Assembly: GCF_900106785.1 (NCBI RefSeq)
Contig: NZ_LT629839.1
Coordinates: forward strand, 42,195 to 106,194
Direction: 5' to 3'
DNA length: 64,000 nt
DNA from: Prevotellamassilia timonensis
Lineage (GTDB): Bacteria > Bacteroidota > Bacteroidia > Bacteroidales > Bacteroidaceae
Below are positions 10,221-62,950 of the stretch, piece after piece (the first letter of the stretch is position 1; every line of letters starts with the position of its first letter). The translations under genes and the position numbers were made by a program. Under the pieces are notes generated by a model. The model made no database searches, was not told where the DNA came from, and worked only from the letters and a program-made list of their open reading frames with translations.

Positions 10221-10310
10221 CTTTATCTGCTTACAAAACAGACTTTTTAGCGAGACCCTTTTGGGGAATTTTTAAGTTGCTTGAAACGCGCTGCAAAAAA
10301 CGCAAGCACT

Positions 10311-13608: not shown

Positions 13609-14137
13609 GGGCTGACGCCGTGGTGTTACAGGTAGTAACGCTACGGCGTCAGTTTTGTTTGCGTATTAGTCCATTGTCCTCGGCGTCAGCCCTTATGTTC
13701 TTATGTCCTTATATCCTTATGTTTACCGCGTTAGCGGCTGCCAAGCCACGCTACGGCGTCAGTTTTATTTGCGTATTGCATCGCTCGCTTTGGCCGCTGC
13801 GCGGAAAACATAAGGATATAAGAACAGAAGGACATAAGGCCGCTGCGCGGCTGACGGCCACGGACTATCGTCCGGGTGGCCTCAAGAGACATAAGGGCTG
13901 ACGCCGTAGCGTGGCTCGGCAGCCGCTAACGCGGTAAACATAAGAACATAAGGACATAAGAACATAAGGCCGTTTCGCGGCTGAAGACCACGGACTAACG
14001 TCCGCGTGGCCTCAAGAACATAAGGGCTGACGCCGTAGTATTACTAAATAGTAGCACTACGGCGTCAGCCCTTATGTCCTTATGTTCTTATGTTCTTCTG
14101 TTTACCGCGTTAGCGGCTGCCAGGCAGCGCTACGGCG
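13609..14137. repeat. Family B mosaic palindrome, copy 3
   Basis: This occupies the gap between convergent secDF and prmC. Two core hairpins are visible (about 13609-13651 and 14026-14070), separated by CCGCGTTAGCGG, GCTGCGCGGC and GGCCACGGAC modules and AACATAAG runs. It is more rearranged than copies 1 and 4, as if two elements had been joined. Confidence 0.87.
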
Positions 14138-16054: not shown

Positions 16055-16292
16055 GAGGTTATAAGGTTATAAAGTAACCTTTGTGAGCAGGTAGCCTAAC
16101 TCTAATGGGGGCGACGCGTCCCGCGTCGGTAGTTAAGGCAAAGCCCCCCCACAGTATTCGCGTGTGATTTGTGCTGCCTGTGAACATCTATTTGGTGTAT
16201 GAACATAGCGCATTTTCCCGACGCGGGACGCGTCGCCCCCATTAGAGGTAGGGGGCCTGCTCACAAAGGTTACTTTATAACCTTATAACCTC
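16055..16292. repeat. 36-bp perfect inverted repeat enclosing a family A element (family C)
   Basis: The left arm 16055-16090 and right arm 16257-16292 are exact reverse complements, based on GAGGTTATAAGGTTATAAAG and CCTTTGTGAGCAG. Weaker complementarity continues outward through GAGTTCTGAG repeats. A single arm of the same family recurs at about 37243-37300. Confidence 0.85.
16102..16245. repeat. Family A inverted-repeat element, copy 2
   Basis: The left arm starts with CTAATGGGGGCGACGCG at 16102 and the right arm ends ...CGCCCCCATTAG at 16245. It sits inside the family C repeat, giving a hairpin within a hairpin. Lies between ribD and the rhomboid gene; the rest of this gap shows nothing else. 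Confidence 0.88.
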
Positions 16293-22603: not shown

Positions 22604-22712
22604 CTAATGGGGGCGACGCGTCCCGCGTCGGTGATAGTGCAGCTGTTGTTTAGTGTGTTTTGTGTGTCTTTTCTTTTTATTTTCCCGACGCGAGACGCGT
22701 CGCCCCCATTAG
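22604..22712. repeat. Family A inverted-repeat element, copy 3
   Basis: Arms from 22604 (CTAATGGGGGCGACGCG) and to 22712 (CGCCCCCATTAG). The loop (GTGCAGCTGTTGTTTAGTG and a T-rich stretch) is nearly the same as in copy 8 at 56578. Confidence 0.9.
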
Positions 22713-22714
22713 AG

Positions 22715-22760
22715 GTTGCGTTTTGTGGTTGCGTTTTGTGGTTGCGTTTTGTGGTTGCGG
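22715..22760 (+). repeat. 13-bp tandem repeat GTTGCGTTTTGTG, 3.5 copies
   Basis: Exact units at 22715-22727, 22728-22740 and 22741-22753 and a partial fourth. The unit derives from the usual right flank of family A elements (GGTTGCGTTTTG), so it looks like local slippage. Confidence 0.9.
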
Positions 22761-23200
22761 TATCTTTACTATACTACAAATACTTTACTTGCCGAGTATC
22801 TTACATCTTACACTAACTCGTTGCAACTCATTGACTGTCAATGCTTTACTCAGTGTAAGATGTTACAAATTCCACCTACACGCAACCTACACAACTCACA
22901 TGTTGCCACACGGACAAGCACGGGAGAAAGATGTCACGGCATAGGGGAGCAGAAAGGTCTGTTGCTCCGACAAATTGTTCTGCGTCCCTATGCCGTATTA
23001 TCTACTGCATACGTCCAAACCGACTGCGTGACAGGGGGTGAGGTGTGTAAGATGTATGCAGGAGTGTGTAAGATACTTTGAAATCATCTTACACTCTTGA
23101 AATCTCTGTATATCAACTTGTTACGTATAAAAAGTGTAAGATGACAGTAAAAGTACAGACACTCGTTTATAGGTAGGCTGACGGGGAGAGAATAAATATA
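22757..23200 (+). repeat. Duplicated ~445-bp non-coding element, copy 2
   Basis: This carries six exact GTGTAAGAT sites: 22853-22861, 23045-23053, 23066-23074 and 23134-23142 on plus, 22805-22813 and 23086-23094 on minus. They form two facing pairs. A central inverted repeat GGCATAGGG ... CCCTATGCC encloses GCAGAA ... TTCTGC. It is ~80% identical to the reverse complement of 1886-2330 and is bounded exactly by two family A elements. No protein is conserved between copies. Confidence 0.87.
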
Positions 23201-23209
23201 ACGCTACCA

Positions 23210-23378
23210 CTAATGGGGGCGACGCGTCTCGCGTCGGGATTTTTCAGTAGCCTCTGGACGCATCGGGATTAAGGCAAAGGCTCACAAACAGACGTGTAAT
23301 TAGCGCTGTTTGTGAGCCTTTATTATTTATGTATGAACATTGCCTTTTTTCCGATGCGGGACGCGTCGCCCCCATTAG
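23210..23378. repeat. Family A inverted-repeat element, copy 4
   Basis: Arms from 23210 (CTAATGGGGGCGACGCG) to 23378 (CCCCCATTAG). The longer loop carries GGCTCACAAACAG ... CTGTTTGTGAGCC, the reverse-oriented relative of the copy 1 loop. Confidence 0.88.
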
Positions 23379-34486: not shown

Positions 34487-35040
34487 GGGCTGACGCCGTA
34501 GCGTGGTTTGGCAGCCGCTAACGCGGGAGACATAAGAGCATAAGTATATCGTTTGTGTTAGCCGCTAACGCGGTAAACAAAAGAACATAAGGACATAAGA
34601 ACATAAGATATAACGTTTGTGTTAGCCGCTTACCGCGGGAACATAAGAACATAAGCTACATAAGAAACATATAAGGCCGCTGCGCGGCTGTCGGCCACGG
34701 ACTAACGTCCGGGTGGCCTCAAGAAACATAAGGGCTGACGCCGTAGTATTACATATAGTAACGCTACGGCGTCAGCCCTTATGTTCTTATGTTCTTCTGT
34801 TTACCGCGTTAGCGGCTGCCAGGCAACGCTACGGCGTCAGCCCTTATGTTTCTTGAGGCCACCCGGACGTTAGTCCGTGGCCGTCAGCCGCGCAGCGGCC
34901 TTATATGTTTCTTATGTAGCTTATGTTCTTATGTTCCCGCGGTAAGCGGCTAACACAAACGTTATATCTTATGTTCTTATGTTCTTATGTCCTTATGTTT
35001 ACCGCGTTAGCGGCCAACCAAGCAACGCTACGGCGTCAGT
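34487..35040. repeat. Family B mosaic palindrome, copy 4
   Basis: This fills the gap between convergent dgt and pdxB. It is the most regular copy: two nearly symmetric arms around a core hairpin at about 34733-34780 with loop ATTACATATAGTAAC, with CCGCGG, GGCCGCTGCGCGGC and AACATAAG/GACATAAG modules in mirror order. Confidence 0.9.
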
Positions 35041-44973: not shown

Positions 44974-45330
44974 AGACGCCGTAGCGTGTCTTGGCAGCCG
45001 CTAACGCGGTAAACATAAGAACATAAGGACATAAGAACATAAGATAACGTTCGTGTTAGCCGCTTACCGCGGGAACATAAGAACATAAGTTTGCATAAGA
45101 AACATACAAGGCCGCTGCGCGGCTGACGGCCACGGACTACCGTCCGGGTGGCCTCAAGAAACATAAGGGCTGACGCCGTAGTATTACATATAGTAACGCT
45201 ACGGCGTCAGCCCTTATGTCCTTATGTTCTTATGTTCTTCTGTTTGCCGCGTTAGCGGCTACCCAGCCACGCTACGGCGTCAGCCCTTATGCCCTTATGT
45301 TCTTATGTTTCCCGCGTTAGCGGCTGCCCA
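44974..45330. repeat. Family B mosaic palindrome, copy 7
   Basis: A near-symmetric copy with core hairpin at about 45168-45215 (loop ATTACATATAGTAAC). It closely matches copy 4. Lies between divergent porP and the PCMD gene, so this family is not limited to convergent gaps. Confidence 0.9.
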
Positions 45331-48140: not shown

Positions 48141-48249
48141 CTAATGGGGGCGACGCGTCCCGCGTCGGGACAGAGAAAGGGAAGAAATACGAACCCTGCT
48201 AAATAATAGCTGCGTCTTTTCCCGACGCGAGACGCGTCGCCCCCATTAG
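48141..48249. repeat. Family A inverted-repeat element, copy 6
   Basis: Arms from 48141 (CTAATGGGGGCGACGCG) to 48249 (CCCCCATTAG). The loop is nearly the same as in copy 5. A stray CACTAATGGGGG follows at 48307-48318, perhaps a decayed arm. Confidence 0.9.
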
Positions 48250-60444: not shown

Positions 60445-60890
60445 CTAATGGGGGCGACGCGTCCCGCGTCGGTACAACTCAGCCACTAACCGCTAACGCG
60501 GGAAACATAAGGACATAAGGACATAAGAACATAAGATAACGTTTGTGTTAGCCGCTTACCGCGGAAACATAAGAACATAAGTTTACATAAGAAACACATA
60601 AGGCCGCTGCGCGGATGACGGCCACGGACTTGCGTCCATGTGGCCTCAAGAAACATAAGGGCTGACGCCGTAGCGTGCTTGGTGCTTTTGCTTCCTTACA
60701 TATATAATATGACGCTCGAGGTTGTAACGGCGTAGCCCTTATGTTCTTGAGGGCACATGGACGCAAGTCCATGCCCGTATGTCTTGAAACACTTATGTTC
60801 TTATGTCCTTATGTTCTTATGTTTTCCGCGTTAGCGGTTAGTGCCTGGGTGCTTGAGTAGCACCGACGCGAGACGCGTCGCCCCCATTAG
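60445..60890. repeat. Family A element, copy 9, split by a family B element
   Basis: Left arm 60445-60472 (CTAATGGGGGCGACGCG ...) and right arm 60863-60890 (... CGTCGCCCCCATTAG) are in the correct order but are separated by ~390 bp instead of ~50-110 bp, with a family B element inside. Confidence 0.87.
60479..60842. repeat. Family B mosaic palindrome, copy 8 (inside family A copy 9)
   Basis: It begins CAGCCACTAACCGCTAACGCGG and ends CCGCGTTAGCGGTTAGTG, so ACTAACCGCTAACGCGG is its terminal inverted repeat here. The interior has AACATAAG/GACATAAG runs and GGCCACGGACTTGCGTCC but a disrupted core. Confidence 0.87.
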
Positions 60891-62590: not shown

Positions 62591-62950
62591 TGCAGTAGCG
62601 TGTTCGGCCGCCGCTAACGCGGGAGACATAAGGACATAAGGACATAAGAACAGAAGATATGACGTTTGTGTTAGCCGCTTACCGCGGAGACATAAGAACA
62701 TAAGCTACATAAGAAACATATAAGGCTGACGCCGTAGCGAATAGTAACGCTACGGCGTCAGCCCTTATGTTTCTTGAGGCCACCCGGACGCAAGTCCGTG
62801 GCCGTCCGCCGCGCAGCGGCTTATATGTCTCTTATGTAGCTTATGTTCTTATGTCTCCGCGGTAAGCGCGTCAACAGCCGCGCAGCGGCCTTATGTCCTT
62901 ATGTCCTTCTGTTCTTATGTCTCCCGCGTTAGCGGCTGGCAGGCCACGCT
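62588..62950. repeat. Family B mosaic palindrome, copy 9
   Basis: Almost symmetric: CCGCTAACGCGG, GACATAAG run, GACGTTTGTGTTA, GCCGCTTACCGCGG, core hairpin at about 62726-62764 with the short loop AATAGTAA, then the mirror modules ending CCGCGTTAGCGGCTGGCAG. It follows directly after the permease stop. Confidence 0.9.

Follow-up and report, generated by a model that had tools for sequence, protein, structure and literature searches.

Dispersed palindromic repeats tied to a protein that would act in trans are known from the REP/BIME sequences, whose partner RAYT is a Y1 transposase, and it is in this tie that they resemble the element described here. Genes of the vapE type occur in phage satellites and in the chromosomes of Bacteroidales and, to our knowledge, the role of VapE outside staphylococcal islands has been little tested. 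SaPI origins consist of oppositely oriented repeats that load helicases head to head (PMC9894130). The C-terminal domain of Cch2 binds the repeat region in the adjacent intergenic DNA (PMC7581432), and REPs are 20-40 bp long (PMC3733652).

The window analysed here is the whole stretch of 64,000 nucleotides taken from Prevotellamassilia timonensis (NZ_LT629839.1, positions 42,195 to 106,194); its contig, C11, carries metG, secDF, nrdD, gldK and gldM. Two segments of the window, on opposite strands, are copies of a repeated element named F1. The original prediction, made when only these two copies had been seen, described them as aligning over their full length at roughly 80% identity, and the alignment was confirmed at the same places with a measured identity of 85%. 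Its site counts were likewise borne out, all six 9-mers being exact in 22757-23200 and, in the second copy, four being exact and two differing by one mismatch, and the central inverted repeat GGCATAGGG/CCCTATGCC is present as claimed at 22938-22946/22986-22994. The features are listed below, together with the number of intact F1 copies in the genome in which each site of the first segment is exact.

22757-23200, + strand: F1 element, a solo origin-like copy without vapE (nhmmer 22758-23199, E 1.7e-149)
1885-2329, - strand: second F1 copy in the window, also solo (nhmmer E 1.6e-148; 85% identical to the first copy)
22801-23146, no strand: dyad-symmetric (imperfect palindrome) region of the first copy (opposite-strand match to its own model, E 5.7e-27)
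1938-2286, no strand: the corresponding dyad-symmetric region in the second copy (self match on the opposite strand, E 1.2e-23)
22805-22813, - strand: 9-mer site 1 (ATCTTACAC), outer left (exact in 50/50 copies)
22853-22861, + strand: 9-mer site 2 (exact in 46/50 copies)
23045-23053, + strand: 9-mer site 3 (exact in 48/50 copies)
23066-23074, + strand: 9-mer site 4 (exact in 45/50 copies)
23086-23094, - strand: 9-mer site 5 (ATCTTACAC; exact in 49/50 copies)
23134-23142, + strand: 9-mer site 6, outer right (exact in 50/50 copies)
22938-22994, no strand: central inverted repeat of the first copy (GGCATAGGG...CCCTATGCC; arms 22938-22946/22986-22994)
2092-2148, no strand: central inverted repeat of the second copy (read from the sequence)
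22716-22754, + strand: 13-bp minisatellite (TTGCGTTTTGTGG), three units adjoining the first copy on its left
22605-22711, no strand: palindromic repeat R1 (a separate repeat family), left neighbour of the first copy
23211-23377, no strand: palindromic repeat R1, right neighbour of the first copy, occupying the place of the leader and vapE in full copies (compare the copies L118, L139 and L157)

The window contains 11 occurrences of the 9-mer GTGTAAGAT or its complement, of which 10 fall inside the two segments; the expected GTGTAAGAT/ATCTTACAC count is 0.35 for the whole window and 0.0024 for 445 bp. The neighbouring R1 is a GC-rich palindromic repeat (TAATGGGGGCGACGCGT...ACGCGTCGCCCCCATTA), often followed by the 13-bp minisatellite, that is found in the window at 16103-16244, 22605-22711, 23211-23377 and 48142-48248, with single arms at 10310, 32306, 56668, 60446 and 60873. 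In many F1 copies the minisatellite joins R1 to the left side of the element, at distances of 28, 41, 54, 67, 80 or 93 bp, and the minisatellite/R1 junction may be a preferred site for F1. Another dispersed repeat, R4 (TTTTTGTGCCATTGAATGGCGCA...GGGTGACGCATTGACGAAG), stands beside several F1 copies, e.g. on the right flanks of L131 and L139.

The two segments belong to a family of 50 intact copies in the 3.48-Mb genome (17 contigs), a number that leaves out the diverged elements L113 and L123 and two diverged palindromes obtained with the left-end pattern. A genome-wide sequence search scored at least 40 places with full or near-full F1 copies; the right-end 21-mer has 52 matches in the genome and the left-end 21-mer 53, with none for the reversed-pattern controls, and each F1 left end is paired with its right end. 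Over positions ~45-392 (~350 bp) the opposite strand of every F1 copy likewise matches the F1 model, and the element is thus an imperfect palindrome. All copies are intergenic, none of the 50 overlapping an ORF of at least 150 aa, and simple ORF calling places 18 of them between convergent, 20 between tandem and 12 between divergent genes, so that no clear orientation preference emerges. This mixture, together with the lack of ORF overlap, disfavours a promoter or terminator of the neighbouring genes. The copies are spread evenly over the contig groups C14/C16/C17 and C2/C6/C11/C12/C13/C15.

A single gene is linked to this family. Downstream of 24 of the F1 copies lies a candidate promoter, followed by the beginning of a gene for a VapE-like helicase, and the downstream similarity runs in many copies through TGTGTACAAATTGTACACTTTTTTTGTTGGGTGCAATGCCTTGGTGTTACCTTTGCAGC, which resembles a promoter of the Bacteroidetes type (TTTG ... 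TAnnTTTG), into ATGAAACGAATGCTTAAC. The vapE start belongs to one protein family in all 24, with three full-length genes of 455-456 residues. In these three full copies the similarity extends as far as the stop codon of vapE and no further, which sets the unit at ~1.9 kb. The full unit (1912 bp) is made of a 445-bp dyad-symmetric iteron array, the promoter with a leader of ~97 bp, vapE and its stop codon; vapE is its only conserved gene, and no integrase, transposase or primase is encoded in it. The protein matches PF05272 VapE-like (4.5e-26), DUF5906 (7.5e-7) and, weakly at the C terminus, DUF3874; its sole sequence match in the PDB is 7pds, 'Similar to D. nodosus vapE' (2e-6 with a single sequence, 2.3e-12 with a profile), and its PHROG annotation is DNA helicase (1.4e-33). 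SF3-like motifs corresponding to Walker A, Walker B, sensor 1 and RRF were found as EQGVRKST, NLDEF, TSN and GSRRF and are conserved in 17 homologues, with an R in the Walker A loop in place of the G of 7pds. By its PF05272 domain and these motifs, the gene is predicted to encode a VapE-like SF3/AAA+ helicase. The AlphaFold model (mean pLDDT 76) shows a confidently predicted core, with a small helix-helix-strand domain at the C terminus, and no recombinase domain was found by domain and PHROG searches. The coding sequence is under purifying selection, with dN/dS among intact genes of 0.10-0.17 for F1 and 0.13-0.16 for the second type of element described below (F2). A defence system was considered and gave no PADLOC match. 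A phage or plasmid origin was also set aside, as the closest phage or plasmid VapE is ~40% identical and a peptide-pattern search of viral contigs returned none.

Most copies are truncated, and the positions of truncation are not uniform. In the 1912-bp unit, the shared sequence of 47 F1 copies breaks off at points from 422 to 1597, and no break falls in 60-419, where the left-end pattern would have caught copies cut inside the palindrome; with uniform breaks, a break-free 60-419 has P 3.9e-5. In the window, the shared sequence of 22757-23200 ends at ~434 and a different repeat follows, while that of 1885-2329 ends at ~459. The F1 gene fragments recovered by a genome-wide protein search either keep residue 1 or are downstream portions of copies that are split or carry an internal deletion (C17:309197, C17:275010, C16:595365, C17:925647, C17:1188817, C17:645817 and C12:90863), and four deletion derivatives (L143, L145, L149 and L158) have the common joint 842/1796. 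Truncation points and gene fragments taken together indicate that the palindrome is kept while the gene decays.

A similar arrangement is also present at four further vapE genes of the genome (L192, L193, L194 and L195), whose products share 66-68% identity with the F1 protein along their length. The palindrome upstream of each is recognised by the F1 model (nhmmer 5e-10 to 5e-5) and retains the central hairpin with different letters; the iteron is TGTCTRCAC in place of GTGTAAGAT in L192, L194 and L195, and a less clear relative of TGTCTRCAC in L193. A search with one of these palindromes returned many stand-alone relatives, the F2 elements. Their end motif TGTCTGCACTCTGCACTTTT, with at most two mismatches, is found 36 times forward and 37 times in reverse in the genome, a balance that fits ~37 F2 elements, with none for the reversed control and one in 57 congeners. 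In the 27 F2 elements scored, the left half holds 104 forward and 23 reverse sites and the right half 19 forward and 70 reverse, with 4.1 expected in all. The sites thus face inward from both sides, in numbers that vary widely and are unequal between the arms, and they persist although the spacers are hardly alignable (median identity 56%). The elements are terminated by 20-bp inverted repeats, with no obvious matching ends on the F1 unit with vapE, and sit between ordinary genes with no vapE remnant in the genome-wide protein search. Comparison of the F1 and F2 VapE proteins gives 85% identity in the helicase core, 48% in the C-terminal 65 residues and 25-34% in the N-terminal part. The type of site goes with the type of vapE gene, and linkage would assign each iteron to its VapE. 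Two diverged palindromes with F1-like ends on both sides, L245 (C14:246759-247160) and C17:76477-76819, look intermediate between F1 and F2.

The distribution of these elements among relatives was evaluated with the species represented by one genome and the relatives searched at limited sensitivity. F1 was absent from 40 relatives (24 of the same genus) save for one 35-bp partial match. The search of the genus, by pattern or sequence identity, is blind to elements with unrelated iterons and was partly complemented by a scan for origin-like clusters with other iterons, which found none in 400 kb of two congeners while detecting 48 of 50 F1 and 23 of 34 F2 loci. Among 247 genomes of the order, vapE matches outside this genome number at most five per genome (E limit 1e-10). 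The absence of clusters in congeners and these low vapE numbers indicate an expansion that, within the genomes sampled, is specific to this lineage. No clearly homologous palindrome was found upstream of vapE in relatives; at least four copies of an 8-mer are present upstream of 6/21 vapE homologues in congeners versus 5/106 control genes (P 0.003). In Bacteroides finegoldii (L255, 3600-3800), GATAAG/CTTATC repeats occupy the gap that separates a vapE-DUF3874 gene from a divergent gene of the HU family; this may be a single-copy case of such a pairing of initiator and sites.

A third family of the genome, R3, consists of dyad-symmetric clusters of AACATAAG-like repeats bordered by CCGCTAACGCGG, which lie in the window at 1357-1703, 13690-14077, 34583-34991, 45011-45301, 60503-60815 and 62624-62913. 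Its border-plus-iteron pattern occurs 108 times in the genome, mostly on C11 and C13, and not at all in 20 congeners, and no vapE partner was found for it. F2 is almost confined to C14/C16/C17 (about 44/46, P 2e-6, by a hand count from the listed places of the end motif). The bias of F2 towards C14/C16/C17 and of R3 towards C11/C13 possibly reflects two replicons or compartments.

All in all, the segment at 22757-23200 is, with somewhat better than even probability, the origin or initiator-binding left end of a ~1.9-kb one-gene VapE replicon that has been amplified and mostly reduced to solo origins. This reading comes from the facing arrays, the central inverted repeat, the adjacent VapE-type gene and a C-terminal domain that diverges along with the sites, and also from the short-repeat enrichment upstream of congener vapE genes and the repeats in the vapE/HU gap of L255. 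The C-terminal domain of VapE would bind the iterons that flank the central inverted repeat in opposite orientations, two VapE helicase rings would be loaded head to head, in the SaPI/SV40 manner, and the DNA between the loaded rings would be opened for replication. The element has been amplified to its 50 intact copies, most of which, including both in the window, have lost vapE, and the three intact vapE genes could serve the solo origins in trans. Binding by VapE, firing of the origin and spread of the copies are steps that we infer, and an origin-like function of the ~50 scattered F1 copies is likewise suggested by their sequence.

The original prediction had left two readings for the spaced 9-mers, protein-binding iterons or paired RNA arms. 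In the 50-copy alignment, mean column identity is 99.6% within the six 9-mers versus 88.6% elsewhere, and further copies keep these 9-mers, 288 of the 300 sites being exact while the spacers drift. By comparison, the truncated vapE copies beside F1 diverge from their consensus by 6.9% per base, from which 53% of the 9-mers would be expected intact, and 288/300 then has P 4e-63 in a calculation that treats the sites as independent, which is not strictly true. Strong inverted repeats and a consensus fold of -48 kcal/mol could speak for a structured non-coding RNA with paired arms; however, the covariation term is only -2.7, and the palindrome has 7 pairs changed on both sides versus 8.9 in shuffles (score 0.051 versus 0.053). 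With covariation no higher than in shuffles, protein-binding sites fit better than RNA arms, and the symmetry is most readily taken as an ordered array of sites for a protein. The F2 arms, moreover, are unequal in site number, and no Rfam model reaches its gathering score within the window, in agreement with the original remark that no known RNA family was recognised; a structured RNA is thus extremely improbable. The iterons, by contrast, are favoured by the kept sites amid drifting spacers, by the different site that the second family has in the same layout with unequal numbers per side, and by a site type that tracks the vapE type, all of which suggest protein binding. Accordingly, the iteron half of the original reading was supported and the RNA half was not; the palindromic symmetry of the element as a whole and the link to a gene had been missed. 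The sites might otherwise be an operator or promoter of vapE only, autoregulatory in function, with the other copies as passive leftovers. The array does lie directly upstream of the vapE promoter and gene in full copies, and initiators often repress their own genes; yet 288/300 sites are kept although half of the copies are without the vapE start, where 0.53 per site would be expected, and the F2 elements have no gene at all, making this explanation very unlikely.

Two broader alternatives concern the whole set of copies. The palindrome could be a transposon end or MITE-like unit of a non-autonomous mobile element, in which a recombinase, VapE-associated or of the host, would act at the sites and the iterons would serve transposition rather than replication. 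The many dispersed intergenic copies, the deletion derivatives with common joints (842/1796) and the 20-bp inverted repeats that end F2 are consistent with it, but the linked gene encodes a VapE-like helicase in which no recombinase domain was found, and the site numbers per side in F2 vary widely, unlike fixed transposon ends. Target-site duplications are also missing: F2 flanks agree no better than shuffled pairs at 4-9 bp and none was seen by eye at the three full F1 units, with the outer ends in both cases not exactly placed. This alternative appears quite unlikely, and a classical MITE was rejected, as no target-site duplication was found and the parent gene is vapE rather than a transposase; as far as tested in F2, this agrees with the original view that the segment is not a simple MITE. 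Somewhat less unlikely, but still doubtful, is that F1 and F2 are domesticated chromosomal sites, bound at ~90 places by VapE or by a host protein of like specificity for chromosome organisation or replication control, with each copy under selection. The retention of the whole palindrome in all F1 copies, the persistence of F2 iterons despite spacer divergence and the restriction of F2 to particular contigs would fit such a role, as would long-lasting conservation of sites in gene-less F1 and F2 copies. Indeed, ~37 gene-less F2 elements that keep their sites between ordinary genes are not predicted by a plain mobile-origin model. The halves of the F1 copies have no tree signal in common (Mantel r 0.035, P 0.33), which also counts in favour of domestication, and among pairs of common variable sites the majority do not pass the four-gamete test; however, recombination between copies or recurrent mutation could equally have erased this signal. 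The truncated vapE beside half of the F1 copies points instead to a mobile origin, and the cluster-free 400 kb of two congeners indicates a young or lineage-specific system. When tested, the readings as an RNA, a MITE, a defence system or a local promoter proved weaker than that of an amplified and reduced VapE replicon.

For one bacterial genome to harbour ~90 dispersed origin-like sites, belonging to at least two types, is unusual. A tentative possibility is that they represent an undescribed kind of selfish or domesticated DNA, i.e., a one-gene element that would spread as its own origin plus VapE, without a recombinase, and whose ~90 sites of at least two specificities would, as solo sites, still be maintained by selection. 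With two paralogous VapE types whose sites differ within one origin-like frame, at ~90 places, the genome amounts to a natural repeat experiment. The system offers a direct means of asking which part of VapE recognises the iterons, whether solo origins can fire in trans and how a chromosome copes with dozens of additional origin-like sites.

The comparison with known systems places this locus beside several of them. The BrickBuilt MITE of Porphyromonas gingivalis is also a species-limited intergenic repeat of Bacteroidales, with a minisatellite part and 19 copies (PMC4596501), but it is a 23-nt tandem repeat with small inverted-repeat ends, whereas F1 is an ordered iteron palindrome tied to vapE. 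F1 differs from REP/BIME in its length of 445 bp and in having a helicase as partner. The chromosomal vapE/HU pairs of Bacteroides share with it a VapE-DUF3874 gene with short repeats in the upstream gap (L255), although they are paired with a divergent HU-family gene and no amplified solo repeats were seen for them. In the putative SCCmec origin, Cch2 is similarly the initiator helicase of a mobile genetic element that binds direct repeats in the adjacent intergenic region, but it is of a different helicase family and is present in single copy with only three iterons. As for SaPI, the module found here stands alone, without integrase, primase or packaging genes; of the SaPI/PICI island hallmarks (integrase, phage-linked regulation, packaging genes), none is in the conserved unit, which has vapE only. 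Its array, moreover, lies upstream of the gene, in ~50 copies and with at least two site types in this one genome. Nevertheless, it has in common with the SaPI replication module a VapE-type helicase homologous to PDB 7pds and an origin-like region of oppositely oriented short repeats beside the initiator gene (PMC9894130, PMC7581432), an arrangement present at both F1 and F2-type vapE loci. Collectively, the layout seen here, in which iterons of opposite orientation adjoin the gene of a self-loading helicase of the VapE type, follows the plan of SaPI and SV40 origins.
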